Origin: Hippasteria phrygiana
Lineage: Eukaryota; Echinodermata; Asteroidea; Valvatida; Goniasteridae
Assembly (NCBI GenBank): GCA_037893225.1
Contig: JAZGUH010000542.1
Coordinates: 124,001 to 188,000 of the forward strand
Direction of reading: 5' to 3'
Length of the DNA stretch: 64,000 nucleotides
Shown here: positions 1-64,000 of the stretch, piece after piece
Position numbering within the stretch: the first letter of the stretch is position 1
How the letters are laid out: every line of letters begins with the position of its first letter
Translations under genes and position numbers: made by a program
Notes under the pieces: model-generated
Databases searched by the model: none
The model's input: the letters and a program-made list of their open reading frames with translations, nothing else
What the model was told of the DNA's origin: nothing

Positions 1-157
1 AAGAAAATAAACATTGCGAGGTTTGAATTTTCTCCACAAGTGTTAACTCTAAGAAGCCGCCGATAATTGCAACATGTAGCGCCAGATCTAAGCTATCCAT
101 ACATGTCAAAATTACTGAATTTGGTTGATATTTCATGCAATTATGAATGAGTAAAGC
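1..157. repeat. Partial monomer at the left edge
   Basis: This is the last 157 bp of a monomer whose class-diagnostic segment lies outside the window, so it cannot be assigned to A, B or C. It carries CAAGTGTTAAC, a variant usually seen in C monomers or in the A monomer just before a C. The array therefore continues to the left of this window. Confidence 0.9.
63..144. other. 9-bp inverted repeat present in nearly every monomer
   Basis: ATAATTGCA at 63-71 is the exact reverse complement of TGCAATTAT at 136-144, with 64 nt between the arms. The pair recurs in most monomers. The left arm is altered in the GATACTTGC and GATATTTGC variants, and the right arm in the TTGTGAAT and TTATAAAT variants at or next to its end. 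Whether it forms a cruciform, binds a protein or is coincidental cannot be told from sequence. Confidence 0.6.
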
Positions 158-389
158 AAGTCCATACCCCAGGGAATTTGACATGCATGGAGCAATAAAT
201 AGACGGTAACATGTACACAGATGTTGGCCGGAAAGAAAATAAACATTGCGAGGTTTGAATTTTCTCCACAAGTTTTAACTCTAAGAAGCCGCCGATAATT
301 GCAACATGTAGCGCCAGATCTAAGCTATCCATACATGTCAAAATTACTGAATTTGGTTGATATTTCATGCAATTATGAATGAGTAAAGC
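158..389. repeat. Reference type A monomer (232 bp)
   Basis: First complete monomer, phased on AAGTC. It shows all five A states: GTCC at 160-163, GACATGCATGG around 180-190, C at 204, C at 210 and T at 214. The A form contains the 8-bp palindrome CATGCATG (with an ATGCAT NsiI site) and the short dyad AACAT-8 nt-ATGTT around TGTACACAG; B lacks both. A-class monomers and their derivatives make up roughly half of the array, in line with a mean period midway between 231 and 232 bp. Confidence 0.95.
162..214. other. 53-bp segment holding all A/B diagnostic sites
   Basis: The five differences that separate A from B map to 162/163 (C present or absent), 184 (T/G), 204 (C/A), 210 (C/T) and 214 (T/C). 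The remaining ~180 bp of the monomer are common to both classes, apart from sporadic secondary variants. Hybrids elsewhere break at different points between these sites, so the segment also records where exchanges have taken place. Confidence 0.9.
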
Positions 390-620
390 AAGTCATACCC
401 CAGGGAATTTGACAGGCATGGAGCAATAAATAGACGGTAACATGTACACAGATGTTGGCCGGAAAGAAAATAAACATTGCGAGGTTTGAATTTTCTCCAC
501 AAGTTTTAACTCTAAGAAGCCGCCGATAATTGCAACATGTAGCGCCAGATCTAAGCTATCCATACATGTCAAAATTACTGAATTTGGTTGATATTTCATG
601 CAATTATGAATGAGTAAAGC
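390..620. repeat. A/B hybrid monomer, B left half and A right half
   Basis: It has GTCAT and GACAGG (B states) followed by GACGGTAACATGTACAC (A states), so the switch lies in the ~20 bp between the second and third diagnostic sites. The same hybrid recurs at 6406, 10110 and 14741, each time just after a C-A pair and before a B with CCATAAATG. The last three are copies carried by the larger duplications. The simplest origin is a crossover or conversion tract ending inside the monomer. Confidence 0.85.
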
Positions 621-3394: not shown

Positions 3395-4089
3395 AAGTCA
3401 TACCCCAGGGAATTTGACAGGCATGGAGCAATAAATAGAAGGTAATATGCACACAGATGTTGGCCGGAAAGAAAATAAACATTGCGAGGTTTGAATTTTC
3501 TCCACAAGTTTTAACTCTAAGAAGCCGCCGATAATTGCAACATGTAGCGCCAGATCTAAGCTATCCATAAATGTCAAAATTACTGAATTTGGTTGATATT
3601 TCATGCAATTATGAATGAGTAAAGCAAGTCCATACCCCAGGGAATTTGACATGCATGGAGCAATAAATAGACGGTAACATGCACACAGATGTTGGCCGGA
3701 AAGAAAATAAACATTGCGAGGTTTGAATTTTCTCCACAAGTTTTAACTCTAAGAAGCCGCCGATAATTGCAACATGTAGCGCCAGATCTAAGCTATCCAT
3801 ACATGTCAAAATTACTGAATTTGGTTGATATTTTATGCAATTATGAATGAGTAAAGCAAGTCCATACCCCAGGGAATTTGACAGGCATGGAGCAATAAAT
3901 AGACGGTAACATGTACACAGATGTTGGCCGGAAAGAAAATAAACATTGCGAGGTTTGAATTTTCTCCACAAGTGTTAACTCTAAGAAGCCGCCGATAATT
4001 GCAACATGTAGCGCCAGATCTAAGCTATCCATACATGTCAAAATTACTGAATTTGGTTGATATTTCATGCAATTATGAATGAGTAAAGC

Positions 4090-7000
4090 AAGTCCATACC
4101 CCAGGGAATTTGACATGCATGGAGCAATAAATAGACGGTAACATGTACACAGATGTTGGCCGGAAAGAAAATAAACATTGCGAGGTTTGAATTTTCTCCA
4201 CAAGTTTTAACTCTAAGAAGCCGCCGATAATTGCAACATGTAGCGCCAGATCTAAGCTATCCATACATGTCAAAATTACTGAATTTGGTTGATATTTCAT
4301 GCAATTATGAATGAGTAAAGCAAGTCATACCCCAGGGAATTTGACAGGCATGGAGCAATAAATAGAAGGTAATATGCACACAGATGTTGGCCGGAAAGAA
4401 AATAAACATTGCGAGGTTTGAATTTTCTCCACAAGTTTTAACTCTAAGAAGCCGCCGATAATTGCAACATGTAGCGCCAGATCTAAGCTATCCATAAATG
4501 TCAAAATTACTGAATTTGGTTGATATTTCATGCAATTATGAATGAGTAAAGCAAGTCCATACCCCAGGGAATTTGACATGCATGGAGCAATAAATAGACG
4601 GTAACATGTACACAGATGTTGGCCGGAAAGAAAATAAACATTGCGAGGTTTGAATTTTCTCCACAAGTTTTAACTCTAAGAAGCCGCCGATACTTGCAAC
4701 ATGTAGCGCCAGATCTAAGCTATCCATACATGTCAAAATTACTGAATTTGGTTGATATTTCATGCAATTATGAATGAGTAAAGCAGGTCCATACCCCAGG
4801 GAATTTGACATGCATGGAGCAATAAATAGACGGTAACATGTACACAGATGTTGGCCGGAAAGAAAATAAACATTGCGAGGTTTGAATTTTCTCCACAAGT
4901 TTTAACTCTAAGAAGCCGCCGATAATTGCAACATGTAGCGCCAGATCTAAGCTATCCATACATGTCAAAATTACTGAATTTGGTTGATATTTCATGCAAT
5001 TATGAATGAGTAAAGCAAGTCATACCCCAGGGAATTTGACAGGCATGGAGCAATAAATAGAAGGTAATATGCACACAGATGTTGGCCGGAAAGAAAATAA
5101 ACATTGCGAGGTTTGAATTTTCTCCACAAGTTTTAACTCTAAGAAGCCGCCGATAATTGCAACATGTAGCGCCAGATCTAAGCTATCCATAAATGTCAAA
5201 ATTACTGAATTTGGTTGATATTTCATGCAATTATGAATGAGTAAAGCAAGTCCATACCCCAGGGAATTTGACATGCATGGAGCAATAAATAGACGGTAAC
5301 ATGTACACAGATGTTGGCCGGAAAGAAAATAAACATTGCGAGGTTTGAATTTTCTCCACAAGTTTTAACTCTAAGAAGCCGCCGATACTTGCAACATGTA
5401 GCGCCAGATCTAAGCTATCCATACATGTCAAAATTACTGAATTTGGTTGATATTTCATGCAATTATGAATGAGTAAAGCAAGTCATACCCCAGGGAATTT
5501 GACAGGCATGGAGCAATAAATAGAAGGTAATATGCACACAGATGTTGGCCGGAAAGAAAATAAACATTGCGAGGTTTGAATTTTCTCCACAAGTTTTAAC
5601 TCTAAGAAGCCGCCGATAATTGCAACATGTAGCGCCAGATCTAAGCTATCCATACATGTCAAAATGACTGAATTTGGTTGATATTTCATGCAATTATGAA
5701 TGAGTAAAGCAAGTCATACCCCAGGGAATTTGACAGGCATGGAGCAATAAATAGAAGGTAATATGCACACAGATGTTGGCCGGAAAGAAAATAAACATTG
5801 CGAGGTTTGAATTTTCTCCACAAGTTTTAACTCTAAGAAGCCGCCGATAATTGCAACATGTAGCGCCAGATCTATGCTATCCATACATGTCAAAATTACT
5901 GAATTTGGTTGATATTTCATGCAATTATGAATGAGTAAAGCAAGTCCATACCCCAGGGAATTTGACAGGCATGGAGCAATAAATAGACGGTAACATGTAC
6001 ACAGATGTTGGCCGGAAAGAAAATAAACATTGCGAGGTTTGAATTTTCTCCACAAGTGTTAACTCTAAGAAGCCGCCGATAATTGCAACATGTAGCGCCA
6101 GATCTAAGCTATCCATACATGTCAAAATTACTGAATTTGGTTGATATTTCATGCAATTATGAATGAGTAAAGCAAGTCCATACCCCAGGGAATTTGACAT
6201 GCATGGAGCAATAAATAGACGGTAACATGTACACAGATGTTGGCCGGAAAGAAAATAAACATTGCGAGGTTTGAATTTTCTCCACAAGTTTTAACTCTAA
6301 GAAGCCGCCGATAATTGCAACATGTAGCGCCAGATCTAAGCTATCCATACATGTCAAAATTACTGAATTTGGTTGATATTTCATGCAATTATGAATGAGT
6401 AAAGCAAGTCATACCCCAGGGAATTTGACAGGCATGGAGCAATAAATAGACGGTAACATGTACACAGATGTTGGCCGGAAAGAAAATAAACATTGCGAGG
6501 TTTGAATTTTCTCCACAAGTTTTAACTCTAAGAAGCCGCCGATAATTGCAACATGTAGCGCCAGATCTAAGCTATCCATACATGTCAAAATTACTGAATT
6601 TGGTTGATATTTCATGCAATTATGAATGAGTAAAGCAAGTCATACCCCAGGGAATTTGACAGGCATGGAGCAATAAATAGAAGGTAATATGCACACAGAT
6701 GTTGGCCGGAAAGAAAATAAACATTGCGAGGTTTGAATTTTCTCCACAAGTTTTAACTCTAAGAAGCCGCCGATAATTGCAACATGTAGCGCCAGATCTA
6801 AGCTATCCATAAATGTCAAAATTACTGAATTTGGTTGATATTTCATGCAATTATGAATGAGTAAAGCAAGTCCATACCCCAGGGAATTTGACATGCATGG
6901 AGCAATAAATAGACGGTAACATGTACACAGATGTTGGCCGGAAAGAAAATAAACATTGCGAGGTTTGAATTTTCTCCACACGTTTTAACTCTAAGAAGCC

Positions 7001-10000
7001 GCCGATACTTGCAACATGTAGCGCCAGATCTAAGCTATCCATACATGTCAAAATTACTGAATTTGGTTGATATTTCATGCAATTATGAATGAGTAAAGCA
7101 GGTCCATACCCCAGGGAATTTGACATGCATGGAGCAATAAATAGACGGTAACATGTACACAGATGTTGGCCGGAAAGAAAATAAACATTGCGAGGTTTGA
7201 ATTTTCTCCACAAGTTTTAACTCTAAGAAGCCGCCGATAATTGCAACATGTAGCGCCAGATCTAAGCTATCCATACATGTCAAAATTACTGAATTTGGTT
7301 GATATTTCATGCAATTATGAATGAGTAAAGCAAGTCATACCCCAGGGAATTTGACAGGCATGGAGCAATAAATAGAAGGTAATATGCACACAGATGTTGG
7401 CCGGAAAGAAAATAAACATTGCGAGGTTTGAATTTTCTCCACAAGTTTTAACTCTAAGAAGCCGCCGATAATTGCAACATGTAGCGCCAGATCTAAGCTA
7501 TCCATACATGTCAAAATTACTGAATTTGGTTGATATTTCATGCAATTATGAATGAGTAAAGCAAGTCATACCCCAGGGAATTTGACAGGCATGGAGCAAT
7601 AAATAGAAGGTAATATGCACACAGATGTTGGCCGGAAAGAAAATAAACATTGCGAGGTTTGAATTTTCTCCACAAGTTTTAACTCTAAGAAGCCGCCGAT
7701 AATTGCAACATGTAGCGCCAGATCTAAGCTATCCATACATGTCAAAATTACTGAATTTGGTTGATATTTCATGCAATTATGAATGAGTAAAGCAAGTCCA
7801 TACCCCAGGGAATTTGACATGCATGGAGCAATAAATAGACGGTAACATGTACACAGATGTTGGCCGGAAAGAAAATAAACATTGCGAGGTTTGAATTTTC
7901 TCCACAAGTTTTAACTCTAAGAAGCCGCCGATAATTGCAACATGTAGCGCCAGATCTAAGCTATCCATACATGTCAAAATTACTGAATTTGGTTGATATT
8001 TCATGCAATTATGAATGAGTAAAGCAAGTCATACCCCAGGGAATTTGACAGGCATGGAGCAATAAATAGAAGGTAATATGCACACAGATGTTGGCCGGAA
8101 AGAAAATAAACATTGCGAGGTTTGAATTTTCTCCACAAGTTTTAACTCTAAGAAGCCGCCGATAATTGCAACATGTAGCGCCAGATCTAAGCTATCCATA
8201 AATGTCAAAATTACTGAATTTGGTTGATATTTCATGCAATTATGAATGAGTAAAGCAAGTCCATACCCCAGGGAATTTGACATGCATGGAGCAATAAATA
8301 GACGGTAACATGTACACAGATGTTGGCCGGAAAGAAAATAAACATTGCGAGGTTTGAATTTTCTCCACAAGTTTTAACTCTAAGAAGCCGCCGATACTTG
8401 CAACATGTAGCGCCAGATCTAAGCTATCCATACATGTCAAAATTACTGAATTTGGTTGATATTTCATGCAATTATGAATGAGTAAAGCAGGTCCATACCC
8501 CAGGGAATTTGACATGCATGGAGCAATAAATAGACGGTAACATGTACACAGATGTTGGCCGGAAAGAAAATAAACATTGCGAGGTTTGAATTTTCTCCAC
8601 AAGTTTTAACTCTAAGAAGCCGCCGATAATCGCAACATGTAGCGCCAGATCTAAGCTATCCATACATGTCAAAATTACTGAATTTGGTTGATATTTCATG
8701 CAATTATGAATGAGTAAAGCAAGTCATACCCCAGGGAATTTGACAGGCATGGAGCAATAAATAGAAGGTAATATGCACACAGATGTTGGCCGGAAAGAAA
8801 ATAAACATTGCGAGGTTTGAATTTTCTCCACAAGTTTTAACTCTAAGAAGCCGCCGATAATTGCAACATGTAGCGCCAGATCTAAGCTATCCATAAATGT
8901 CAAAATTACTGAATTTGGTTGATATTTCATGCAATTATGAATGAGTAAAGCAAGTCCATACCCCAGGGAATTTGACATGCATGGAGCAATAAATAGACGG
9001 TAACATGTACACAGATGTTGGCCGGAAAGAAAATAAACATTGCGAGGTTTGAATTTTCTCCACAAGTTTTAACTCTAAGAAGCCGCCGATACTTGCAACA
9101 TGTAGCGCCAGATCTAAGCTATCCATACATGTCAAAATTACTGAATTTGGTTGATATTTCATGCAATTATGAATGAGTAAAGCAAGTCATACCCCAGGGA
9201 ATTTGACAGGCATGGAGCAATAAATAGAAGGTAATATGCACACAGATGTTGGCCGGAAAGAAAATAAACATTGCGAGGTTTGAATTTTCTCCACAAGTTT
9301 TAACTCTAAGAAGCCGCCGATAATTGCAACATGTAGCGCCAGATCTAAGCTATCCATACATGTCAAAATGACTGAATTTGGTTGATATTTCATGCAATTA
9401 TGAATGAGTAAAGCAAGTCATACCCCAGGGAATTTGACAGGCATGGAGCAATAAATAGAAGGTAATATGCACACAGATGTTGGCCGGAAAGAAAATAAAC
9501 ATTGCGAGGTTTGAATTTTCTCCACAAGTTTTAACTCTAAGAAGCCGCCGATAATTGCAACATGTAGCGCCAGATCTATGCTATCCATACATGTCAAAAT
9601 TACTGAATTTGGTTGATATTTCATGCAATTATGAATGAGTAAAGCAAGTCCATACCCCAGGGAATTTGACAGGCATGGAGCAATAAATAGACGGTAACAT
9701 GTACACAGATGTTGGCCGGAAAGAAAATAAACATTGCGAGGTTTGAATTTTCTCCACAAGTGTTAACTCTAAGAAGCCGCCGATAATTGCAACATGTAGC
9801 GCCAGATCTAAGCTATCCATACATGTCAAAATTACTGAATTTGGTTGATATTTCATGCAATTATGAATGAGTAAAGCAAGTCCATACCCCAGGGAATTTG
9901 ACATGCATGGAGCAATAAATAGACGGTAACATGTACACAGATGTTGGCCGGAAAGAAAATAAACATTGCGAGGTTTGAATTTTCTCCACAAGTTTTAACT

Positions 10001-11266
10001 CTAAGAAGCCGCCGATAATTGCAACATGTAGCGCCAGATCTAAGCTATCCATACATGTCAAAATTACTGAATTTGGTTGATATTTCATGCAATTATGAAT
10101 GAGTAAAGCAAGTCATACCCCAGGGAATTTGACAGGCATGGAGCAATAAATAGACGGTAACATGTACACAGATGTTGGCCGGAAAGAAAATAAACATTGC
10201 GAGGTTTGAATTTTCTCCACAAGTTTTAACTCTAAGAAGCCGCCGATAATTGCAACATGTAGCGCCAGATCTAAGCTATCCATACATGTCAAAATTACTG
10301 AATTTGGTTGATATTTCATGCAATTATGAATGAGTAAAGCAAGTCATACCCCAGGGAATTTGACAGGCATGGAGCAATAAATAGAAGGTAATATGCACAC
10401 AGATGTTGGCCGGAAAGAAAATAAACATTGCGAGGTTTGAATTTTCTCCACAAGTTTTAACTCTAAGAAGCCGCCGATAATTGCAACATGTAGCGCCAGA
10501 TCTAAGCTATCCATAAATGTCAAAATTACTGAATTTGGTTGATATTTCATGCAATTATGAATGAGTAAAGCAAGTCCATACCCCAGGGAATTTGACATGC
10601 ATGGAGCAATAAATAGACGGTAACATGTACACAGATGTTGGCCGGAAAGAAAATAAACATTGCGAGGTTTGAATTTTCTCCACACGTTTTAACTCTAAGA
10701 AGCCGCCGATACTTGCAACATGTAGCGCCAGATCTAAGCTATCCATACATGTCAAAATTACTGAATTTGGTTGATATTTCATGCAATTATGAATGAGTAA
10801 AGCAGGTCCATACCCCAGGGAATTTGACATGCATGGAGCAATAAATAGACGGTAACATGTACACAGATGTTGGCCGGAAAGAAAATAAACATTGCGAGGT
10901 TTGAATTTTCTCCACAAGTTTTAACTCTAAGAAGCCGCCGATAATTGCAACATGTAGCGCCAGATCTAAGCTATCCATACATGTCAAAATTACTGAATTT
11001 GGTTGATATTTCATGCAATTATGAATGAGTAAAGCAAGTCATACCCCAGGGAATTTGACAGGCATGGAGCAATAAATAGAAGGTAATATGCACACAGATG
11101 TTGGCCGGAAAGAAAATAAACATTGCGAGGTTTGAATTTTCTCCACAAGTTTTAACTCTAAGAAGCCGCCGATAATTGCAACATGTAGCGCCAGATCTAA
11201 GCTATCCATACATGTCAAAATTACTGAATTTGGTTGATATTTCATGCAATTATGAATGAGTAAAGC
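4090..11266. repeat. 16-monomer HOR, 3704-bp offset, about two copies
   Basis: Copy one begins at 4090 and copy two at 7794. The order in both is A, B(CCATAAATG), A(GATACTTGC), A(GCAGGTCC), B(CCATAAATG), A(GATACTTGC), B(AAAATGAC), B(ATCTATGC), C, A, hybrid, B(CCATAAATG), A(CACACG, GATACTTGC), A(GCAGGTCC), B. That is 15 matching monomers; the next position is B at 7563 but A at 11267, where the copies part. One private change seen is T>C at 8631. The offset 3704 equals eight 232-bp plus eight 231-bp monomers. Confidence 0.85.
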
Positions 11267-13582
11267 AAGTCCATACCCCAGGGAATTTGACATGCATGGA
11301 GCAATAAATAGACGGTAACATGTACACAGATGTTGGCCGGAAAGAAAATAAACATTGCGAGGTTTGAATTTTCTCCACAAGTTTTAACTCTAAGAAGCCG
11401 CCGATACTTGCAACATGTAGCGCCAGATCTAAGCTATCCATACATGTCAAAATTACTGAATTTGGTTGATATTTCATGCAATTATGAATGAGTAAAGCAG
11501 GTCCATACCCCAGGGAATTTGACATGCATGGAGCAATAAATAGACGGTAACATGTACACAGATGTTGGCCGGAAAGAAAATAAACATTGCGAGGTTTGAA
11601 TTTTCTCCACAAGTTTTAACTCTAAGAAGCCGCCGATAATTGCAACATGTAGCGCCAGATCTAAGCTATCCATACATGTCAAAATTACTGAATTTGGTTG
11701 ATATTTCATGCAATTATGAATGAGTAAAGCAAGTCATACCCCAGGGAATTTGACAGGCATGGAGCAATAAATAGAAGGTAATATGCACACAGATGTTGGC
11801 CGGAAAGAAAATAAACATTGCGAGGTTTGAATTTTCTCCACAAGTTTTAACTCTAAGAAGCCGCCGATAATTGCAACATGTAGCGCCAGATCTAAGCTAT
11901 CCATACATGTCAAAATTACTGAATTTGGTTGATATTTCATGCAATTATGAATGAGTAAAGCAAGTCATACCCCAGGGAATTTGACAGGCATGGAGCAATA
12001 AATAGAAGGTAATATGCACACAGATGTTGGCCGGAAAGAAAATAAACATTGCGAGGTTTGAATTTTCTCCACAAGTTTTAACTCTAAGAAGCCGCCGATA
12101 ATTGCAACATGTAGCGCCAGATCTAAGCTATCCATAAATGTCAAAATTACTGAATTTGGTTGATATTTCATGCAATTATGAATGAGTAAAGCAAGTCCAT
12201 ACCCCAGGGAATTTGACATGCATGGAGCAATAAATAGACGGTAACATGTACACAGATGTTGGCCGGAAAGAAAATAAACATTGCGAGGTTTGAATTTTCT
12301 CCACACGTTTTAACTCTAAGAAGCCGCCGATACTTGCAACATGTAGCGCCAGATCTAAGCTATCCATACATGTCAAAATTACTGAATTTGGTTGATATTT
12401 CATGCAATTATGAATGAGTAAAGCAGGTCCATACCCCAGGGAATTTGACATGCATGGAGCAATAAATAGACGGTAACATGTACACAGATGTTGGCCGGAA
12501 AGAAAATAAACATTGCGAGGTTTGAATTTTCTCCACAAGTTTTAACTCTAAGAAGCCGCCGATAATTGCAACATGTAGCGCCAGATCTAAGCTATCCATA
12601 CATGTCAAAATGACTGAATTTGGTTGATATTTCATGCAATTATGAATGAGTAAAGCAAGTCATACCCCAGGGAATTTGACAGGCATGGAGCAATAAATAG
12701 AAGGTAATATGCACACAGATGTTGGCCGGAAAGAAAATAAACATTGCGAGGTTTGAATTTTCTCCACAAGTTTTAACTCTAAGAAGCCGCCGATAATTGC
12801 AACATGTAGCGCCAGATCTAAGCTATCCATACATGTCAAAATTACTGAATTTGGTTGATATTTCATGCAATTATGAATGAGTAAAGCAAGTCCATACCCC
12901 AGGGAATTTGACATGCATGGAGCAATAAATAGACGGTAACATGTACACAGATGTTGGCCGGAAAGAAAATAAACATTGCGAGGTTTGAATTTTCTCCACA
13001 AGTTTTAACTCTAAGAAGCCGCCGATACTTGCAACATGTAGCGCCAGATCTAAGCTATCCATACATGTCAAAATTACTGAATTTGGTTGATATTTCATGC
13101 AATTATGAATGAGTAAAGCAGGTCCATACCCCAGGGAATTTGACATGCATGGAGCAATAAATAGACGGTAACATGTACACAGATGTTGGCCGGAAAGAAA
13201 ATAAACATTGCGAGGTTTGAATTTTCTCCACAAGTTTTAACTCTAAGAAGCCGCCGATAATTGCAACATGTAGCGCCAGATCTAAGCTATCCATACATGT
13301 CAAAATTACTGAATTTGGTTGATATTTCATGCAATTATGAATGAGTAAAGCAAGTCATACCCCAGGGAATTTGACAGGCATGGAGCAATAAATAGAAGGT
13401 AATATGCACACAGATGTTGGCCGGAAAGAAAATAAACATTGCGAGGTTTGAATTTTCTCCACAAGTTTTAACTCTAAGAAGCCGCCGATAATTGCAACAT
13501 GTAGCGCCAGATCTAAGCTATCCATACATGTCAAAATTACTGAATTTGGTTGATATTTCATGCAATTGTGAATGAGTAAAGC
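10341..13582. repeat. 7-monomer sub-HOR, 1621-bp period, two copies
   Basis: Units start at 10341 and 11962. Each reads B(CCATAAATG), A(CACACG, GATACTTGC), A(GCAGGTCC), B, A(GATACTTGC), A(GCAGGTCC), B. The unit is two B-A-A triplets, distinguished by CCATAAATG and CACACG, plus a closing B. Nested repeats of monomer, triplet, seven-mer and twenty-mer are therefore visible in one place. Confidence 0.87.
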
Positions 13583-18213: not shown

Positions 18214-18444
18214 AAGTCATACCCCAGGGAATTTGACAGGCATGGAGCAATAAATAGAAGGTAATATGCACACAGATGTTGGCCGGAAAGAAAATAAACA
18301 TTGCGAGGTTTGAATTTTCTCCACAAGTTTTAACTCTAAGAAGCCGCCGATAATTGCAACATGTAGCGCCAGATCTAAGCTATCCATAAATGTCAAAATT
18401 TATGAATTTGGTTGATATTTCATGCAATTATGAATGAGTAAAGC

Positions 18445-48771: not shown

Positions 48772-50854
48772 AAGTCATACCCCAGGGAATTTGACAGGCA
48801 AGGAGCAATAAATAGAAGGTAATATGCACACAGATGTTGGCCGGAAAGAAAATAAACATTGCGAGGTTTGAATTTTCTCCACAAGTTTTAACTCTAAGAA
48901 GCCGCCGATAATTGCAACATGTAGCGCCAGATCTAAGCTATCCATACATGTCAAAATTACTGAATTTGGTTGATATTTCATGCAATTATGAATGAGTAAA
49001 GCAAGTCCATACCCCAGGGAATTTGACATGCATGGAGCAATAAATAGACGGTAACATGTACACAGATGTTGGCCGGAAAGAAAATAAACATTGCGAGGTT
49101 TGAATTTTCTCCACAAGTTTTAACTCTAAGAAGCCGCCGATAATTGCAACATGTAGCGCCAGATCTAAGCTATCCATACATGTCAAACTTACTGAATTTG
49201 GTTGATATTTCATGCAATTATGAATGAGTAAAGCAAGTCATACCCCAGGGAATTTGACAGGCATGGAGCAATAAATAGAAGGTAATATGCACACAGATGT
49301 TGGCCGGAAAGAAAATAAACATTGCGAGGTTTGAATTTTCTCCACAAGTTTTAACTCTAAGAAGCCGCCGATAATTGCAACATGTAGCGCCAGATCTAAG
49401 CTATCCATACATGTCAAAATTACTGAATTTGGTTGATATTTCATGCAATTATGAATGAGTAAAGCAAGTCATACCCCAGGGAATTTGACAGGCATGGAGC
49501 AATAAATAGAAGGTAATATGCACACAGATGTTGGCCGGAAAGAAAATAAACATTGCGAGGTTTGAATTTTCTCCACAAGTTTTAACTCTAAGAAGCCGCC
49601 GATAATTGCAACATGTAGCGCCAGATCTAAGCTATCCATAAATGTCAAAATTTATGAATTTGGTTGATATTTCATGCAATTATGAATGAGTAAAGCAAGT
49701 CCATACCCCAGGGAATTTGACATGCATGGAGCAATAAATAGACGGTAACATGTACACAGATGTTGGCCGGAAAGAAAATAAACATTGCGAGGTTTGAATT
49801 TTCTCCACAAGTTTTAACTCTAAGAAGCCGCCGATAATTGCAACATGTAGCGCCAGATCTAAGCTATCCATACATGTCAAAATGACTGAATTTGGTTGAT
49901 ATTTCATGCAATTATGAATGAGTAAAGCAAGTCATACCCCAGGGAATTTGACAGGCATGGAGCAATAAATAGAAGGTAATATGCACACAGATGTTGGCCG
50001 GAAAGAAAATAAACATTGCGAGGTTTGAATTTTCTCCACAAGTTTTAACTCTAAGAAGCCGCCGATATTTGCAACATGTAGCGCCAGATCTAAGCTATCC
50101 ATACATGTCAAAATTACTGAATTTGGTTGATATTTCATGCAATTATGAATCAGTAAAGCAAGTCCATACCCCAGGGAATTTGACATGCATGGAGCAATAA
50201 ATAGACGGTAACATGTACACAGATGTTGGCCGGAAAGAAAATAAACATTGCGAGGTTTGAATTTTCTCCACAAGTTTTAACTCTAAGAAGCCGCCGATAA
50301 TTGCAACATGTAGCGCCAGATCTAAGCTATCCATACATGTCAAAATGACTGAATTTGGTTGATATTTCATGCAATTATGAATGAGTAAAGCAAGTCATAC
50401 CCCAGGGAATTTGACAGGCATGGAGCAATAAATAGAAGGTAATATGCACACAGATGTTGGCCGGAAAGAAAATAAACATTGCGAGGTTTGAATTTTCTCC
50501 ACAAGTTTTAACTCTAAGAAGCCGCCGATAATTGCAACATGTAGCGCCAGATCTAAGCTATCCTTACATGTCAAAATTACTGAATTTGGTTGATATTTCA
50601 TGCAATTATGAATGAGTAAAGCAAGTCCATACCCCAGGGAATTTGACATGCATGGAGCAATAAATAGACGGTAACATGTACACAGATGTTGGCCGGAAAG
50701 AAAATAAACATTGCGAGGTTTGAATTTTCTCCACAAGTGTTAACTCTAAGAAGCCGCCGATAATTGCAACATGTAGCGCCAGATCTAAGCTATCCATACA
50801 TGTCAGAATTACTGAATTTGGTTGATATTTCATGCAATTATGAATGAGTAAAGC

Positions 50855-51086
50855 AAGTCCATACCCCAGGGAATTTGACAGGCATGGAGCAATAAATAGA
50901 CGGTAACATGTACACAGATGTTGGCCGGAAAGAAAATAAACATTGCGAGGTTTGAATTTTCTCCACAAGTGTTAACTCTAAGAAGCCGCCGATAATTGCA
51001 ACATGTAGCACCAGATCTAAGCTATCCATAAATGTCAAAATTTATGAATTTGGTTGATATTTCATGCAATTATGAATGAGTAAAGC
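50855..51086. repeat. Recombinant C monomer, 3' end replaced
   Basis: It keeps the C markers GACAGG, AGTGTTAAC and GCACCAG, but ends in CCATAAATG and AAAATTTATG in place of CCATACATG and CAAATTAC. The switch lies in the ~20 bp after GCACCAG. Identical recombinants are at 54328 and 57801, while the C at 61274 has the older CAAATTAC ending, so the fourth unit of the 15-mer family did not receive this change. Confidence 0.82.
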
Positions 51087-54000
51087 AAGTCCATACCCCA
51101 GGGAATTTGACATGCATGGAGCAATAAATAGACGGTAACATGTACACAGATGTTGGCCGGAAAGAAAATAAACATTGCGAGGTTTGAATTTTCTCCACAA
51201 GTTTTAACTCTAAGAAGCCGCCGATAATTGCAACATGTAGCGCCAGATCTAAGCTATCCATACATGTCAAAATGACTGAATTTGGTTGATATTTCATGCA
51301 ATTATGAATGAGTAAAGCAAGTCATACCCCAGGGAATTTGACAGGCATGGAGCAATAAATAGAAGGTAATATGCACACAGATGTTGGCCGGAAAGAAAAT
51401 AAACATTGCGAGGTTTGAATTTTCTCCACAAGTTTTAACTCTAAGAAGCCGCCGATAATTGCAACATGTAGCGCCAGATCTAAGCTATCCATACATGTCA
51501 AAATTACTGAATTTGGTTGATATTTCATGCAATTATGAATGAGTAAAGCAAGTCCATACCCCAGGGAATTTGACATGCATGGAGCAATAAATAGACGGTA
51601 ACATGTACACAGATGTTGGCCGGAAAGAAAATAAACATTGCAAGGTTTGAATTTTCTCCACAAGTTTTAACTCTAAGAAGCCGCCGATAATTGCAACATG
51701 TAGCGCCAGATCTAAGCTATCCATACATGTCAAAATTACTGAATTTGGTTGATATTTCATGCAATTATGAATGAGTAAAGCAGGTCCATACCCCAGGGAA
51801 TTTGACATGCATGGAGCAATAAATAGACGGTAACATGTACACAGATGTTGGCCGGAAAGAAAATAAACATTGCGAGGTTTGAATTTTCTCCACAAGTTTT
51901 AACTCTAAGAAGCCGCCGATAATTGCAACATGTAGCGCCAGATCTAAGCTATCCATACATGTCAAAATTACTGAATTTGGTTGATATTTCATGCAATTAT
52001 GAATGCGTAAAGCAAGTCATACCCCAGGGAATTTGACAGGCATGGATCAATAAATAGAAGGTAATATGCACACAGATGTTGGCCGGAAAGAAAATAAACA
52101 TTGCGAGGTTTGAATTTTCTCCACAAGTTTTAACTCTAAGAAGCCGCCGATAATTGCAACATGTAGCGCCAGATCTAAGCTATCCATAAATGTCAAAATT
52201 ACTGCATTTGGTTGATATTTCATGCAATTATGAATGAGTAAAGCAAGTCATACCCCAGGGAATTTGACAGGCAAGGAGCAATAAATAGAAGGTAATATGC
52301 ACACAGATGTTGGCCGGAAAGAAAATAAACATTGCGAGGTTTGAATTTTCTCCACAAGTTTTAACTCTAAGAAGCCGCCGATAATTGCAACATGTAGCGC
52401 CAGATCTAAGCTATCCATACATGTCAAAATTACTGAATTTGGTTGATATTTCATGCAATTATGAATGAGTAAAGCAAGTCCATACCCCAGGGAATTTGAC
52501 ATGCATGGAGCAATAAATAGACGGTAACATGTACACAGATGTTGGCCGGAAAGAAAATAAACATTGCGAGGTTTGAATTTTCTCCACAAGTTTTAACTCT
52601 AAGAAGCCGCCGATAATTGCAACATGTAGCGCCAGATCTAAGCTATCCATACATGTCAAACTTACTGAATTTGGTTGATATTTCATGCAATTATGAATGA
52701 GTAAAGCAAGTCATACCCCAGGGAATTTGACAGGCATGGAGCAATAAATAGAAGGTAATATGCACACAGATGTTGGCCGGAAAGAAAATAAACATTGCGA
52801 GGTTTGAATTTTCTCCACAAGTTTTAACTCTAAGAAGCCGCCGATAATTGCAACATGTAGCGCCAGATCTAAGCTATCCATACATGTCAAAATTACTGAA
52901 TTTGGTTGATATTTCATGCAATTATGAATGAGTAAAGCAAGTCATACCCCAGGGAATTTGACAGGCATGGAGCAATAAATAGAAGGTAATATGCACACAG
53001 ATGTTGGCCGGAAAGAAAATAAACATTGCGAGGTTTGAATTTTCTCCACAAGTTTTAACTCTAAGAAGCCGCCGATAATTGCAACATGTAGCGCCAGATC
53101 TAAGCTATCCATAAATGTCAAAATTACTGAATTTGGTTGATATTTCATGCAATTATGAATGAGTAAAGCAAGTCCATACCCCAGGGAATTTGACATGCAT
53201 GGAGCAATAAATAGACGGTAACATGTACACAGATGTTGGCCGGAAAGAAAATAAACATTGCGAGGTTTGAATTTTCTCCACAAGTTTTAACTCTAAGAAG
53301 CCGCCGATAATTGCAACATGTAGCGCCAGATCTAAGCTATCCATACATGTCAAAATGACTGAATTTGGTTGATATTTCATGCAATTATGAATGAGTAAAG
53401 CAAGTCATACCCCAGGGAATTTGACAGGCATGGAGCAATAAATAGAAGGTAATATGCACACAGATGTTGGCCGGAAAGAAAATAAACATTGCGAGGTTTG
53501 AATTTTCTCCACAAGTTTTAACTCTAAGAAGCCGCCGATATTTGCAACATGTAGCGCCAGATCTAAGCTATCCATACATGTCAAAATTACTGAATTTGGT
53601 TGATATTTCATGCAATTATGAATCAGTAAAGCAAGTCCATACCCCAGGGAATTTGACATGCATGGAGCAATAAATAGACGGTAACATGTACACAGATGTT
53701 GGCCGGAAAGAAAATAAACATTGCGAGGTTTGAATTTTCTCCACAAGTTTTAACTCTAAGAAGCCGCCGATAATTGCAACATGTAGCGCCAGATCTAAGC
53801 TATCCATACATGTCAAAATGACTGAATTTGGTTGATATTTCATGCAATTATGAATGAGTAAAGCAAGTCATACCCCAGGGAATTTGACAGGCATGGAGCA
53901 ATAAATAGAAGGTAATATGCACACAGATGTTGGCCGGAAAGAAAATAAACATTGCGAGGTTTGAATTTTCTCCACAAGTTTTAACTCTAAGAAGCCGCCG

Positions 54001-57000
54001 ATAATTGCAACATGTAGCGCCAGATCTAAGCTATCCTTACATGTCAAAATTACTGAATTTGGTTGATATTTCATGCAATTATGAATGAGTAAAGCAAGTC
54101 CATACCCCAGGGAATTTGACATGCATGGAGCAATAAATAGACGGTAACATGTACACAGATGTTGGCCGGAAAGAAAATAAACATTGCGAGGTTTGAATTT
54201 TCTCCACAAGTGTTAACTCTAAGAAGCCGCCGATAATTGCAACATGTAGCGCCAGATCTAAGCTATCCATACATGTCAGAATTACTGAATTTGGTTGATA
54301 TTTCATGCAATTATGAATGAGTAAAGCAAGTCCATACCCCAGGGAATTTGACAGGCATGGAGCAATAAATAGACGGTAACATGTACACAGATGTTGGCCG
54401 GAAAGAAAATAAACATTGCGAGGTTTGAATTTTCTCCACAAGTGTTAACTCTAAGAAGCCGCCGATAATTGCAACATGTAGCACCAGATCTAAGCTATCC
54501 ATAAATGTCAAAATTTATGAATTTGGTTGATATTTCATGCAATTATGAATGAGTAAAGCAAGTCCATACCCCAGGGAATTTGACATGCATGGAGCAATAA
54601 ATAGACGGTAACATGTACACAGATGTTGGCCGGAAAGAAAATAAACATTGCGAGGTTTGAATTTTCTCCACAAGTTTTAACTCTAAGAAGCCGCCGATAA
54701 TTGCAACATGTAGCGCCAGATCTAAGCTATCCATACATGTCAAAATGACTGAATTTGGTTGATATTTCATGCAATTATGAATGAGTAAAGCAAGTCATAC
54801 CCCAGGGAATTTGACAGGCATGGAGCAATAAATAGAAGGTAATATGCACACAGATGTTGGCCGGAAAGAAAATAAACATTGCGAGGTTTGAATTTTCTCC
54901 ACAAGTTTTAACTCTAAGAAGCCGCCGATAATTGCAACATGTAGCGCCAGATCTAAGCTATCCATACATGTCAAAATTACTGAATTTGGTTGATATTTCA
55001 TGCAATTATGAATCAGTAAAGCAAGTCCATACCCCAGGGAATTTGACATGCATGGAGCAATAAATAGACGGTAACATGTACACAGATGTTGGCCGGAAAG
55101 AAAATAAACATTGCGAGGTTTGAATTTTCTCCACAAGTTTTAACTCTAAGAAGCCGCCGATAATTGCAACATGTAGCGCCAGATCTAAGCTATCCATACA
55201 TGTCAAAATTACTGAATTTGGTTGATATTTCATGCAATTATAAATGAGTAAAGCAAGTCATACCCCAGGGAATTTGACAGGCATGGAGCAATAAATAGAA
55301 GGTAATATGCACACAGATGTTGGCCGGAAAGAAAACAAACATTGCGAGGTTTGAATTTTCTCCACAAGTTTTAACTCTAAGAAGCCGCCGATAATTGCAA
55401 CATGTAGCGCCAGATCTAAGCTATCCATAAATGTCAAAATTACTGAATTTGGTTGATATTTCATGCAATTATGAATGAGTAAAGCAAGTCCATACCCCAG
55501 GGAATTTGACATGCATGGAGCAATAAATAGACGGTAACATGTACACAGATGTTGGCCGGAAAGAAAATAAACATTGCAAGGTTTGAATTTTCTCCACAAG
55601 TTTTAACTCTAAGAAGCCGCCGATAATTGCAACATGTAGCGCCAGATCTAAGCTATCCATACATGTCAAAATTACTGAATTTGGTTGATATTTCATGCAA
55701 TTATGAATGAGTAAAGCAGGTCCATACCCCAGGGAATTTGACATGCATGGAGCAATAAATAGACGGTAACATGTACACAGATGTTGGCCGGAAAGAAAAT
55801 AAACATTGCGAGGTTTGAATTTTCTCCACAAGTTTTAACTCTAAGAAGCCGCCGATAATTGCAACATGTAGCGCCAGATCTAAGCTATCCATACATGTCA
55901 AAATTACTGAATTTGGTTGATATTTCATGCAATTATGAATGCGTAAAGCAAGTCATACCCCAGGGAATTTGACAGGCATGGATCAATAAATAGAAGGTAA
56001 TATGCACACAGATGTTGGCCGGAAAGAAAATAAACATTGCGAGGTTTGAATTTTCTCCACAAGTTTTAACTCTAAGAAGCCGCCGATAATTGCAACATGT
56101 AGCGCCAGATCTAAGCTATCCATAAATGTCAAAATTACTGCATTTGGTTGATATTTCATGCAATTATGAATGAGTAAAGCAAGTCATACCCCAGGGAATT
56201 TGACAGGCAAGGAGCAATAAATAGAAGGTAATATGCACACAGATGTTGGCCGGAAAGAAAATAAACATTGCGAGGTTTGAATTTTCTCCACAAGTTTTAA
56301 CTCTAAGAAGCCGCCGATAATTGCAACATGTAGCGCCAGATCTAAGCTATCCATACATGTCAAAATTACTGAATTTGGTTGATATTTCATGCAATTATGA
56401 ATGAGTAAAGCAAGTCCATACCCCAGGGAATTTGACATGCATGGAGCAATAAATAGACGGTAACATGTACACAGATGTTGGCCGGAAAGAAAATAAACAT
56501 TGCGAGGTTTGAATTTTCTCCACAAGTTTTAACTCTAAGAAGCCGCCGATAATTGCAACATGTAGCGCCAGATCTAAGCTATCCATACATGTCAAACTTA
56601 CTGAATTTGGTTGATATTTCATGCAATTATGAATGAGTAAAGCAAGTCATACCCCAGGGAATTTGACAGGCATGGAGCAATAAATAGAAGGTAATATGCA
56701 CACAGATGTTGGCCGGAAAGAAAATAAACATTGCGAGGTTTGAATTTTCTCCACAAGTTTTAACTCTAAGAAGCCGCCGATAATTGCAACATGTAGCGCC
56801 AGATCTAAGCTATCCATACATGTCAAAATTACTGAATTTGGTTGATATTTCATGCAATTATGAATGAGTAAAGCAAGTCATACCCCAGGGAATTTGACAG
56901 GCATGGAGCAATAAATAGAAGGTAATATGCACACAGATGTTGGCCGGAAAGAAAATAAACATTGCGAGGTTTGAATTTTCTCCACAAGTTTTAACTCTAA

Positions 57001-60000
57001 GAAGCCGCCGATATTTGCAACATGTAGCGCCAGATCTAAGCTATCCATACATGTCAAAATTACTGAATTTGGTTGATATTTCATGCAATTATGAATCAGT
57101 AAAGCAAGTCCATACCCCAGGGAATTTGACATGCATGGAGCAATAAATAGACGGTAACATGTACACAGATGTTGGCCGGAAAGAAAATAAACATTGCGAG
57201 GTTTGAATTTTCTCCACAAGTTTTAACTCTAAGAAGCCGCCGATAATTGCAACATGTAGCGCCAGATCTAAGCTATCCATACATGTCAAAATGACTGAAT
57301 TTGGTTGATATTTCATGCAATTATGAATGAGTAAAGCAAGTCATACCCCAGGGAATTTGACAGGCATGGAGCAATAAATAGAAGGTAATATGCACACAGA
57401 TGTTGGCCGGAAAGAAAATAAACATTGCGAGGTTTGAATTTTCTCCACAAGTTTTAACTCTAAGAAGCCGCCGATAATTGCAACATGTAGCGCCAGATCT
57501 AAGCTATCCTTACATGTCAAAATTACTGAATTTGGTTGATATTTCATGCAATTATGAATGAGTAAAGCAAGTCCATACCCCAGGGAATTTGACATGCATG
57601 GAGCAATAAATAGACGGTAACATGTACACAGATGTTGGCCGGAAAGAAAATAAACATTGCGAGGTTTGAATTTTCTCCACAAGTGTTAACTCTAAGAAGC
57701 CGCCGATAATTGCAACATGTAGCGCCAGATCTAAGCTATCCATACATGTCAGAATTACTGAATTTGGTTGATATTTCATGCAATTATGAATGAGTAAAGC
57801 AAGTCCATACCCCAGGGAATTTGACAGGCATGGAGCAATAAATAGACGGTAACATGTACACAGATGTTGGCCGGAAAGAAAATAAACATTGCGAGGTTTG
57901 AATTTTCTCCACAAGTGTTAACTCTAAGAAGCCGCCGATAATTGCAACATGTAGCACCAGATCTAAGCTATCCATAAATGTCAAAATTTATGAATTTGGT
58001 TGATATTTCATGCAATTATGAATGAGTAAAGCAAGTCCATACCCCAGGGAATTTGACATGCATGGAGCAATAAATAGACGGTAACATGTACACAGATGTT
58101 GGCCGGAAAGAAAATAAACATTGCGAGGTTTGAATTTTCTCCACAAGTTTTAACTCTAAGAAGCCGCCGATAATTGCAACATGTAGCGCCAGATCTAAGC
58201 TATCCATACATGTCAAAATGACTGAATTTGGTTGATATTTCATGCAATTATGAATGAGTAAAGCAAGTCATACCCCAGGGAATTTGACAGGCATGGAGCA
58301 ATAAATAGAAGGTAATATGCACACAGATGTTGGCCGGAAAGAAAATAAACATTGCGAGGTTTGAATTTTCTCCACAAGTTTTAACTCTAAGAAGCCGCCG
58401 ATAATTGCAACATGTAGCGCCAGATCTAAGCTATCCATACATGTCAAAATTACTGAATTTGGTTGATATTTCATGCAATTATGAATCAGTAAAGCAAGTC
58501 CATACCCCAGGGAATTTGACATGCATGGAGCAATAAATAGACGGTAACATGTACACAGATGTTGGCCGGAAAGAAAATAAACATTGCGAGGTTTGAATTT
58601 TCTCCACAAGTTTTAACTCTAAGAAGCCGCCGATAATTGCAACATGTAGCGCCAGATCTAAGCTATCCATACATGTCAAAATTACTGAATTTGGTTGATA
58701 TTTCATGCAATTATAAATGAGTAAAGCAAGTCATACCCCAGGGAATTTGACAGGCATGGAGCAATAAATAGAAGGTAATATGCACACAGATGTTGGCCGG
58801 AAAGAAAACAAACATTGCGAGGTTTGAATTTTCTCCACAAGTTTTAACTCTAAGAAGCCGCCGATAATTGCAACATGTAGCGCCAGATCTAAGCTATCCA
58901 TAAATGTCAAAATTACTGAATTTGGTTGATATTTCATGCAATTATGAATGAGTAAAGCAAGTCCATACCCCAGGGAATTTGACATGCATGGAGCAATAAA
59001 TAGACGGTAACATGTACACAGATGTTGGCCGGAAAGAAAATAAACATTGCAAGGTTTGAATTTTCTCCACAAGTTTTAACTCTAAGAAGCCGCCGATAAT
59101 TGCAACATGTAGCGCCAGATCTAAGCTATCCATACATGTCAAAATTACTGAATTTGGTTGATATTTCATGCAATTATGAATGAGTAAAGCAGGTCCATAC
59201 CCCAGGGAATTTGACATGCATGGAGCAATAAATAGACGGTAACATGTACACAGATGTTGGCCGGAAAGAAAATAAACATTGCGAGGTTTGAATTTTCTCC
59301 ACAAGTTTTAACTCTAAGAAGCCGCCGATAATTGCAACATGTAGCGCCAGATCTAAGCTATCCATACATGTCAAAATTACTGAATTTGGTTGATATTTCA
59401 TGCAATTATGAATGCGTAAAGCAAGTCATACCCCAGGGAATTTGACAGGCATGGATCAATAAATAGAAGGTAATATGCACACAGATGTTGGCCGGAAAGA
59501 AAATAAACATTGCGAGGTTTGAATTTTCTCCACAAGTTTTAACTCTAAGAAGCCGCCGATAATTGCAACATGTAGCGCCAGATCTAAGCTATCCATAAAT
59601 GTCAAAATTACTGCATTTGGTTGATATTTCATGCAATTATGAATGAGTAAAGCAAGTCATACCCCAGGGAATTTGACAGGCAAGGAGCAATAAATAGAAG
59701 GTAATATGCACACAGATGTTGGCCGGAAAGAAAATAAACATTGCGAGGTTTGAATTTTCTCCACAAGTTTTAACTCTAAGAAGCCGCCGATAATTGCAAC
59801 ATGTAGCGCCAGATCTAAGCTATCCATACATGTCAAAATTACTGAATTTGGTTGATATTTCATGCAATTATGAATGAGTAAAGCAAGTCCATACCCCAGG
59901 GAATTTGACATGCATGGAGCAATAAATAGACGGTAACATGTACACAGATGTTGGCCGGAAAGAAAATAAACATTGCGAGGTTTGAATTTTCTCCACAAGT

Positions 60001-62199
60001 TTTAACTCTAAGAAGCCGCCGATAATTGCAACATGTAGCGCCAGATCTAAGCTATCCATACATGTCAAACTTACTGAATTTGGTTGATATTTCATGCAAT
60101 TATGAATGAGTAAAGCAAGTCATACCCCAGGGAATTTGACAGGCATGGAGCAATAAATAGAAGGTAATATGCACACAGATGTTGGCCGGAAAGAAAATAA
60201 ACATTGCGAGGTTTGAATTTTCTCCACAAGTTTTAACTCTAAGAAGCCGCCGATAATTGCAACATGTAGCGCCAGATCTAAGCTATCCATACATGTCAAA
60301 ATTACTGAATTTGGTTGATATTTCATGCAATTATGAATGAGTAAAGCAAGTCATACCCCAGGGAATTTGACAGGCATGGAGCAATAAATAGAAGGTAATA
60401 TGCACACAGATGTTGGCCGGAAAGAAAATAAACATTGCGAGGTTTGAATTTTCTCCACAAGTTTTAACTCTAAGAAGCCGCCGATATTTGCAACATGTAG
60501 CGCCAGATCTAAGCTATCCATACATGTCAAAATTACTGAATTTGGTTGATATTTCATGCAATTATGAATCAGTAAAGCAAGTCCATACCCCAGGGAATTT
60601 GACATGCATGGAGCAATAAATAGACGGTAACATGTACACAGATGTTGGCCGGAAAGAAAATAAACATTGCGAGGTTTGAATTTTCTCCACAAGTTTTAAC
60701 TCTAAGAAGCCGCCGATAATTGCAACATGTAGCGCCAGATCTAAGCTATCCATACATGTCAAAATGACTGAATTTGGTTGATATTTCATGCAATTATGAA
60801 TGAGTAAAGCAAGTCATACCCCAGGGAATTTGACAGGCATGGAGCAATAAATAGAAGGTAATATGCACACAGATGTTGGCCGGAAAGAAAATAAACATTG
60901 CGAGGTTTGAATTTTCTCCACAAGTTTTAACTCTAAGAAGCCGCCGATAATTGCAACATGTAGCGCCAGATCTAAGCTATCCTTACATGTCAAAATTACT
61001 GAATTTGGTTGATATTTCATGCAATTATGAATGAGTAAAGCAAGTCCATACCCCAGGGAATTTGACATGCATGGAGCAATAAATAGACGGTAACATGTAC
61101 ACAGATGTTGGCCGGAAAGAAAATAAACATTGCGAGGTTTGAATTTTCTCCACAAGTGTTAACTCTAAGAAGCCGCCGATAATTGCAACATGTAGCGCCA
61201 GATCTAAGCTATCCATACATGTCAGAATTACTGAATTTGGTTGATATTTCATGCAATTATGAATGAGTAAAGCAAGTCCATACCCCAGGGAATTTGACAG
61301 GCATGGAGCAATAAATAGACGGTAACATGTACACAGATGTTGGCCGGAAAGAAAATAAACATTGCGAGGTTTGAATTTTCTCCACAAGTGTTAACTCTAA
61401 GAAGCCGCCGATAATTGCAACATGTAGCACCAGATCTAAGCTATCCATACATGTCAAATTACTGAATTTGGTTGATATTTCATGCAATTATGAATGAGTA
61501 AAGCAAGTCCATACCCCAGGGAATTTGACATGCATGGAGCAATAAATAGACGGTAACATGTACACAGATGTTGGCCGGAAAGAAAATAAACATTGCGAGG
61601 TTTGAATTTTCTCCACAAGTTTTAACTCTAAGAAGCCGCCGATAATTGCAACATGTAGCGCCAGATCTAAGCTATCCATACATGTCAAAATGACTGAATT
61701 TGGTTGATATTTCATGCAATTATGAATGAGTAAAGCAAGTCATACCCCAGGGAATTTGACAGGCATGGAGCAATAAATAGAAGGTAATATGCACACAGAT
61801 GTTGGCCGGAAAGAAAATAAACATTGCGAGGTTTGAATTTTCTCCACAAGTTTTAACTCTAAGAAGCCGCCGATAATTGCAACATGTAGCGCCAGATCTA
61901 AGCTATCCATACATGTCAAAATTACTGAATTTGGTTGATATTTCATGCAATTATGAATCAGTAAAGCAAGTCCATACCCCAGGGAATTTGACATGCATGG
62001 AGCAATAAATAGACGGTAACATGTACACAGATGTTGGCCGGAAAGAAAATAAACATTGCGAGGTTTGAATTTTCTCCACAAGTTTTAACTCTAAGAAGCC
62101 GCCGATAATTGCAACATGTAGCGCCAGATCTAAGCTATCCATAAATGTCAAAATTACTGAATTTGGTTGATATTTCATGCAATTATGAATGAGTAAAGC

Positions 62200-64000
62200 A
62201 AGTCCATACCCCAGGGAATTTGACATGCATGGAGCAATAAATAGACGGTAACATGTACACAGATGTTGGCCGGAAAGAAAATAAACATTGCAAGGTTTGA
62301 ATTTTCTCCACAAGTTTTAACTCTAAGAAGCCGCCGATAATTGCAACATGTAGCGCCAGATCTAAGCTATCCATACATGTCAAAATTACTGAATTTGGTT
62401 GATATTTCATGCAATTATGAATGAGTAAAGCAGGTCCATACCCCAGGGAATTTGACATGCATGGAGCAATAAATAGACGGTAACATGTACACAGATGTTG
62501 GCCGGAAAGAAAATAAACATTGCGAGGTTTGAATTTTCTCCACAAGTTTTAACTCTAAGAAGCCGCCGATAATTGCAACATGTAGCGCCAGATCTAAGCT
62601 ATCCATACATGTCAAAATTACTGAATTTGGTTGATATTTCATGCAATTATGAATGCGTAAAGCAAGTCATACCCCAGGGAATTTGACAGGCATGGATCAA
62701 TAAATAGAAGGTAATATGCACACAGATGTTGGCCGGAAAGAAAATAAACATTGCGAGGTTTGAATTTTCTCCACAAGTTTTAACTCTAAGAAGCCGCCGA
62801 TAATTGCAACATGTAGCGCCAGATCTAAGCTATCCATACATGTCAAAATTACTGAATTTGGTTGATATTTCATGCAATTATGAATGAGTAAAGCAAGTCA
62901 TACCCAAGGGAATTTGACAGGCATGGAGCAATAAATAGAAGGTAATATGCACACAGATGTTGGCCGGAAAGAAAATAAACATTGCGAGGTTTGAATTTTC
63001 TCCACAAGTTTTAACTCTAAGAAGCCGCCGATAATTGCAACATGTAGCGCCAGATCTAAGCTATCCATACATGTCAAACTTACTGAATTTGGTTGATATT
63101 TCATGCAATTATGAATGAGTAAAGCAAGTCAGACCCCAGGGAATTTGACAGGCATGGAGCAATAAATAGAAGGTAATATGCACACAGATGTTGGCCGGAA
63201 AGAAAATAAACATTGCGAGGTTTGAATTTTCTCCACAAGTTTTAACTCTAAGAAGCCGCCGATAATTGCAACATGTAGCGCCAGATCTAAGCTATCCATA
63301 AATGTCAAAATTTATGAATTTGGTTGATATTTCATGCAATTATGAATGAGTAAAGCAAGTCCATGCCCCAGGGAATTTGACATGCATGGAGCAATAAATA
63401 GACGGTAACATGTACACAGATGTTGGCCGGAAAGAAAATAAACATTGCGAGGTTTGAATTTTCTCCACAAGTTTTAACTCTAAGAAGCCGCCGATAATTG
63501 CAACATGTAGCGCCAGATCTAAGCTATCCATACATGTCAAAATGACTGAATTTGGTTGATATTTCATGCAATTATGAATGAGTAAAGCAAGTCATACCCC
63601 AGGGAATTTGACAGGCATGGAGCAATAAATAGAAGGTAATATGCACACAGATGTTGGCCGGAAAGAAAATAAACATTGCGAGGTTTGAATTTTCTCCACA
63701 AGTTTTAACTCTAAGAAGCCGCCGATAATTGCAACATGTAGCGCCAGATCTAAGCTATCCATACATGTCAAAATTACTGAATTTGGTTGATATTTCATGC
63801 AATTATGAATCAGTAAAGCAAGTCCATACCCCAGGGAATTTGACATGCATGGAGCAATAAATAGACGGTAACATGTACACAGATGTTGGCCGGAAAGAAA
63901 ATAAACATTGCGAGGTTTGAATTTTCTCCACAAGTTTTAACTCTAAGAAGCCGCCGATAATTGCAACATGTAGCGCCAGATCTAAGCTATCCATACATGT
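62200..64000. repeat. Right-hand stretch resembling the 12-mer unit, cut by the window edge
   Basis: The order is A(TTGCAAGG), A(GCAGGTCC), B(GAATGCG, GGATCAATAA), B(CAAACTTAC), B(CCATAAATG, AAAATTTATG), A(AAAATGAC), B, then 181 bp of an A(GAATCAG) from 63820. This matches 35578-37429 of the 12-mer block at a distance of 26622 bp, not the adjacent 15-mer family. The array clearly continues past base 64000. Confidence 0.83.
62906..63365. other. Three private substitutions at the same monomer site
   Basis: In three consecutive monomers the otherwise constant ATACCCCAGG is altered: C>A at 62906 (ACCCAAGG), T>G at 63132 (CAGACCCC) and A>G at 63365 (CATGCCCC). All fall within about 6 bp of the same monomer position, and I see none of them elsewhere in the window. 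Confidence 0.8.

Follow-up and report, generated by a model that had tools for sequence, protein, structure and literature searches.

Local multi-monomer units and some chimeric joints in a two-type satellite array of Hippasteria phrygiana

The DNA analysed here comprises 64,000 nucleotides of the echinoderm Hippasteria phrygiana (GenBank assembly GCA_037893225.1, contig JAZGUH010000542.1, positions 124,001 to 188,000 of the forward strand). This whole stretch is called the window, positions are counted from its first nucleotide, and all features described below lie on the plus strand unless stated otherwise. The window (1–64,000) was found to be a single head-to-tail satellite array of 276 complete monomers of 230–232 bp and one partial monomer, the latter being excluded from all monomer counts. 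Tandem Repeats Finder reported the array over 1–64,000 with a period of 232, 276.5 copies and 97% matches, and gave 463 as a second period for the same interval. The original prediction, which was made from the letters of the sequence, had stated that a 231/232-bp monomer fills the window, and this was upheld; an example monomer, in the phase of that prediction, has its sequence at 158–389. Stepwise alignment to a reference monomer showed that 139 of the complete monomers were 232 bp, 136 were 231 bp and one was 230 bp long, with zero insertions and a single orientation across all monomers. Only two indel sites were present in the 276 monomers. The GC content was nearly constant along the window (0.378–0.381). 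The monomers represented 55 distinct sequences, 24 of which occurred once, and the mean difference over all monomer pairs was 4.81. The window contained 123 stop-to-stop open reading frames of at least 110 amino acids, all of them on the minus strand and the longest of 121 amino acids; the two of these 123 that were searched had no homologues, and no tRNA genes were found in the window. The window is thus a satellite in the usual sense, a long head-to-tail array of near-identical monomers in which no genes were found.

Two monomer types were directly visible in the array. Type A (232 bp) and type B (231 bp) were distinguished by the columns 162, 184, 204, 210, and 214, five sites contained within 53 bp. 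All five A states were carried by 125 monomers and all five B states by 128, the remaining 23 being mixed; when only columns 204, 210, and 214 were used, 143 monomers were A, 131 were B and 2 were mixed. On average, two A monomers differed by 2.7, two B monomers by 1.6, and an A and a B monomer by 7.4. The number of A/B neighbour junctions was 181, compared with 135.6 (standard deviation 8.4) in 5000 shuffles, an excess that is inflated because of the local duplications described below. Most of the other common variable sites (19 of 21) were found outside monomer positions 162–214. The longest invariant block was 13 bp, compared with a mean of 20.4 for random placement of the 43 variable sites; it is shorter than expected, and no conserved protein-binding box is therefore indicated. 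A pJ-alpha-like motif was no better than in shuffles. Among the 44 substitution variants, transversions (29) were more frequent than transitions (15). The observed/expected ratio of CpG was 0.71 across the array, which shows no sign of strong CpG decay. Together, the excess of transversions and the CpG ratio would be unlike a heavily methylated satellite.

Superimposed on the two types were local units of several monomers, which were also seen directly. Runs of monomers matching at lag k, with at most one difference allowed per monomer pair, detected units of 16, 20, 10, 4, 13, 12, 6, and 15 monomers, in addition to one of 7 monomers. All eight units named in the original prediction were thus present. 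Two of them were found to be iterated. The 4-monomer unit (4-mer; the other units are named likewise) of 926 bp occurred in 4.00 copies at 25,004–28,707, and the 15-mer occurred at 48,152–62,274 as four successive units of 15, 17, 15, and 14 monomers. In these two, the 4-mer and the 14–17-mer, a unit is tandemly repeated and its copies are more alike than its monomers, so that they form local higher-order repeats (HORs). The other six occurred in 1.92–2.00 copies, which indicates single tandem duplications, not iterated HOR arrays. The 16-mer (unit 3704 bp) was found at 3933–11,109 in 1.94 copies, followed by the 20-mer (unit 4631 bp) at 9258–18,287 in 1.95 copies and the 10-mer (unit 2316 bp) at 18,288–22,919 in 2.00 copies. 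The 13-mer (unit 3009 bp) and the 12-mer (unit 2778 bp) were found at 29,634–35,420 and 34,727–40,050, respectively, each in 1.92 copies. The 6-mer, the weakest of the eight, was found at 42,598–45,373 in 2.0 copies. The name HOR, which had been given to all eight units, therefore holds for the 4-mer and the 15-mer with their four units each and does not hold for the six single duplications.

The units were compared with shuffled arrays. The mismatch-tolerant scores of the 15-, 20-, 16-, 13-, 4-, 12-, and 10-mer ranged between 10 and 20, compared with a mean maximum score of 5.37 and a highest score of 9 in 200 shuffles that preserved the A/B order, and seven of the eight named units thus exceeded all 200 shuffles. 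The score of the 6-mer did not exceed these shuffles because only six matching pairs precede a break; in its favour, all six pairs (6/6) were exact, and the unit contains monomer type 30, which was confined to monomers 190 and 196. In shuffles, 30 of them free and 30 with the A/B order preserved, no run of exactly equal types was longer than 5. Strings of four monomers that recur in the array contained 216 of the 276 monomers; three shuffles gave 0, 8, and 0 such monomers. Of the 89 string recurrences, 70 were spaced by at most 20 monomers. No unit was found to be homogenised along the array: for lags of 1–137 the lowest mean difference was 4.04 (lag 30), compared with 4.81 overall, in line with the earlier statement that none of the named units spans the array. 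The 7-mer duplication was found inside copy 1 of the 20-mer at 10,184–13,656 (2.14 copies) and inside copy 2 at 14,815–18,287. Its presence in both copies indicates that it is probably older than the 20-mer duplication, and this is the sole relative age that could be ordered. It had further been proposed that the newest units replace older ones. This was not borne out, as both ends of the array lie outside the window and only one nested age was found.

The joints between the copies carried information on how the duplications may have arisen. If k monomers are duplicated by unequal exchange and the break falls within a monomer, the middle monomer would be chimeric: its 5' part would come from the monomer that follows copy 2 and its 3' part from the one that precedes copy 1. 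A joint was considered informative where the joint monomer differed from both of these predicted parents, which gave 13 cases among 48 positions retained by a similarity filter (k of 4–39). The mark expected of unequal exchange, a chimeric joint with the predicted order of parents, was found in part: five of the 13 informative cases (k = 7, 10, 15, 16, and 20) were exact chimeras in the predicted orientation, compared with 0 of 13 when the parents were swapped. In the background of random triples whose middle monomer differs from both others, 1833 of 52,595 (3.5%) were chimeras. The clearest joint was that of the 20-mer, monomer 60 (13,657–13,888), whose 5' part matches monomer 80 and whose 3' part matches monomer 40; the breakpoint lies between positions 204 and 209 of the monomer and is thereby placed within 6 bp. 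The breakpoint of joint monomer 34 of the 16-mer (7637–7868) lies in the interval 42–65 of the monomer; those of monomer 90 of the 10-mer (20,604–20,835) and monomer 223 of the 15-mer (51,393–51,624) lie between positions 8 and 101 and between positions 102 and 148, respectively. Repeated local amplification over a shared A-B background, as originally proposed, is supported, and the chimeric joints in some blocks strengthen it.

Combinations of variable sites within the monomer also pointed to recombination. All four state combinations were present at 72 of the 325 pairs formed by 26 common variable sites with two main states, and in 43 of the 72 pairs the rarest combination was carried by at least two monomers; these pairs are consistent with recombination within monomers. 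In a simulated neutral model, runs of 1 to 20 or 30 monomers were duplicated or deleted in register, breakpoints fell within monomers, and mutations arose at random. The simulations started from alternating A/B monomers and were run at six hand-chosen, unfitted settings with 8 runs each. The means of the settings bracketed the number of types (41–82, observed 55), the singletons (20–50, observed 24), the monomers in recurring strings (167–241, observed 216), the median lag (13.8–22, observed 15) and the A/B alternation (118–235, observed 182). In these simulations, neutral exchange would thus be sufficient in outline, which is not a fit.

We infer that the window is very probably part of a eukaryotic satellite array that evolves, perhaps neutrally, by recombination between misaligned in-register copies. 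The recombination would proceed by unequal exchange between sister chromatids, or by a broken replication fork that restarts out of register. Such events would duplicate or delete runs of monomers and so give units of 4 to 20 monomers (about 0.9 to 4.6 kb); point mutations would mark individual monomers, and later events would copy the marked blocks. The outcome would be a patchwork of local units over an A/B background. Unequal exchange and break-induced replication are not distinguished by the simulation; a review (PMC8997354) shows the two side by side as models of HOR amplification.

Several results weigh against this interpretation. Eight of the 13 informative joints were not exact chimeras; these comprised all three cases of the 13-mer, both cases of the 12-mer (one mismatch each), the one case of the 4-mer, one case of the 16-mer block and one of the 20-mer block; the 6-mer yielded zero informative joints. 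The 13 cases are not independent, as up to three of them come from one block, and the chimera at k = 7 is weak since it rests on variants carried by one and two monomers. Among the 72 pairs with four combinations, 29 depend on one monomer. At all six settings the simulation missed the mean difference (3.11–4.30, compared with 4.8 observed) and the fraction of identical pairs (0.08–0.20, compared with 0.056 observed). When extended to all monomer types, a test for chimeras with a single breakpoint accounted for only 6 among 16 types that are at least two differences away from every other recurrent type. One of the misfits would be explained by a later mutation: joint monomer 162 of the 12-mer is a chimera except for one mismatch, which falls at a variant unique to its parent, monomer 150. 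What sets the array apart is that its monomers are near-identical (4.8 differences per pair) and yet marked by variants, so that chimeric joints make some of the exchange events legible. The array is therefore suited to testing whether HORs stem from unequal exchange or from break-induced replication, and is otherwise an ordinary satellite; the local copying and re-copying of blocks is ordinary satellite evolution, of which some joints are directly readable here.

A different question is the role of the array. By analogy with alpha satellite, in which the CENP-B box differs between A and B monomers, the array could be an active centromere satellite in which A and B would be functionally distinct and the HOR patchwork would mark the kinetochore-forming core. 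We regard this as possible, though somewhat doubtful. It is compatible with exchange between misaligned copies, an explanation that leaves the location of the array unsettled. The array is homogeneous and uninterrupted, the differences between A and B cluster at positions 162–214, and neighbouring monomers differ in type above chance, as would suit such a role; the alternation is, however, inflated by duplications, and the simulation that started from strictly alternating A/B monomers brackets it without selection. WW dinucleotides showed a periodicity peak near 11.2 bp (9.5–11.5 bp scanned), which none of 1000 shuffles equalled for type A and one of 1000 for type B, but AA/TT alone showed no periodicity. 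In the commonest type-A monomer an imperfect inverted repeat of borderline strength was found (matched by 36 of 2000 shuffles), whereas the commonest type-B monomer was devoid of such a repeat (matched by 594 of 2000). The fold of monomer 1 as single-stranded DNA was better than that of 199 of 200 shuffles (z of −2.8), which also speaks in favour of the centromere. Against it, a CENP-B box was not found in either type, the best match to the motif being 9 of 17 positions and being equalled by 400 of 400 shuffles per type. HORs also occur in non-centromeric arrays of Salicaceae (poplar, willow), as described in a study of these plants (PMC12046899); together with the lack of an outstanding invariant block, this argues against any special role. 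Monomer 1 was also found to contain an imperfect inverted repeat of 22 nucleotides (82%) at window positions 96–117 and 170–191.

From the sequence, a function in the centromere or in heterochromatin would be plausible, and the array is probably located in constitutive heterochromatin (centromeric, pericentromeric or subtelomeric). A narrower form of the centromere explanation, in which the array would be an undescribed satellite of the centromere core and A and B would have distinct protein-binding roles, as in alpha satellite, with no CENP-B box, appears improbable. The monomer was not found described in the open-licence literature, which was searched with 16-base fragments in both orientations and with monomer-length phrases, a search that covered no eukaryotic repeat database. 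Looser searches led to a mouse minor-satellite unit and a PCR fragment, neither of which concerns this monomer as far as the matching text shows. The structure is of a kind that is already known; the monomer itself may be new or already on record.

Part of the patchwork could instead have been produced by the assembly, if reads of two haplotypes or misspaced repeats had been joined to give two-copy duplications. About two copies were indeed found in six of the eight blocks, and the monomer types change abruptly at 18,287/18,288. This position is one of two, the other being 46,299/46,300, at which the array was split by eye into three domains after viewing the string of types. Of the 21 monomer types left of 18,287/18,288, all but the four commonest are absent from the right side; 13 types are common to the second and third domains. 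At this boundary, two regions amplified independently may have met long ago, or the assembly may have joined them. Against an artefact, the two copies of the 16-mer and of the 20-mer have diverged, with 87% and 84% of the compared pairs being exact and not 100%, the 4-mer and the 15-mer have four units each, and the presence of only two indel sites in 276 monomers suggests that the base quality is high. The chimeras in the predicted order of parents (5 of 13, compared with 0 of 13 swapped) also speak against an assembly origin, with partial weight, because ordered chimeras would arise from a misjoin as well, provided that its false overlap stopped within a monomer. An artefact of this kind is unlikely on these results, and exchange between misaligned copies is preferred as the source of the patchwork.

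It is very unlikely that the array represents a repeated non-coding RNA gene, a ribozyme-bearing satellite or repeats of viral or bacterial origin: the RNA fold of the first 463 bases was better than expected on the minus strand (z of −2.6, 0 of 100 shuffles as good) and to a lesser degree on the plus strand (z of −1.9, 5 of 100 shuffles as good), but no Rfam family reached its gathering score in the window, and the A and B boxes of RNA polymerase III were no better than in shuffles. The nine permissive Rfam hits on 1–930 had a best score of 15.4 bits, compared with a gathering score of 100. Further against such an origin, no match was found in plasmids and phages (blastn with 464 bases), in viral contigs (two exact patterns of 21 and 24 bases) or in contigs of prokaryote genomes (two exact patterns of 26 and 23 bases), searches from which records of the own genome may be excluded. 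This lack of matches, together with the long satellite array, pointed to a eukaryotic origin.

The array was compared with known satellites. Responder of Drosophila consists of alternating dimers of left and right repeats of about 120 bp; it is alike in having two alternating related types and differs in repeat length. Local HORs are present in the arrays of AthCEN178 (formerly CEN180) of Arabidopsis. The monomers of Palv156 of Populus form HORs, and their similarity drops with distance (PMC12046899). Both AthCEN178 and Palv156 differ from the present array in monomer length and are likened to it by description. TmSat1 (225 bp) and TmSat2 (704 bp) of Tribolium madens contain related subunits of about 110 bp (PMC13081366), and the monomer of TmSat1 is similar in length to that of the present array. 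In mouse minor satellite the monomer is 120 bp, a 232-bp unit is reported for some arrays, and no prominent HOR is reported there (PMC3218096); the likeness to the present array is in the length of that 232-bp unit. The ungapped cyclic self-identity of the present monomer peaked at 37.5% (offset 36), so that no subunits of about 110 bp or of half its length are seen, unlike TmSat1/TmSat2 and mouse minor satellite. Human alpha satellite, as outlined in a review (PMC8997354), has monomers of 171 bp, A and B monomer types and several HOR sizes intermixed in one layer, and the monomers inside one HOR may share only 50–70% identity. The present array is like alpha satellite in its head-to-tail monomers, in the two types that tend to alternate and in its several unit sizes. 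It is unlike alpha satellite in that no CENP-B box was found, the monomer is 230–232 bp, A and B differ at five sites, and six of the eight units are present in about two copies.

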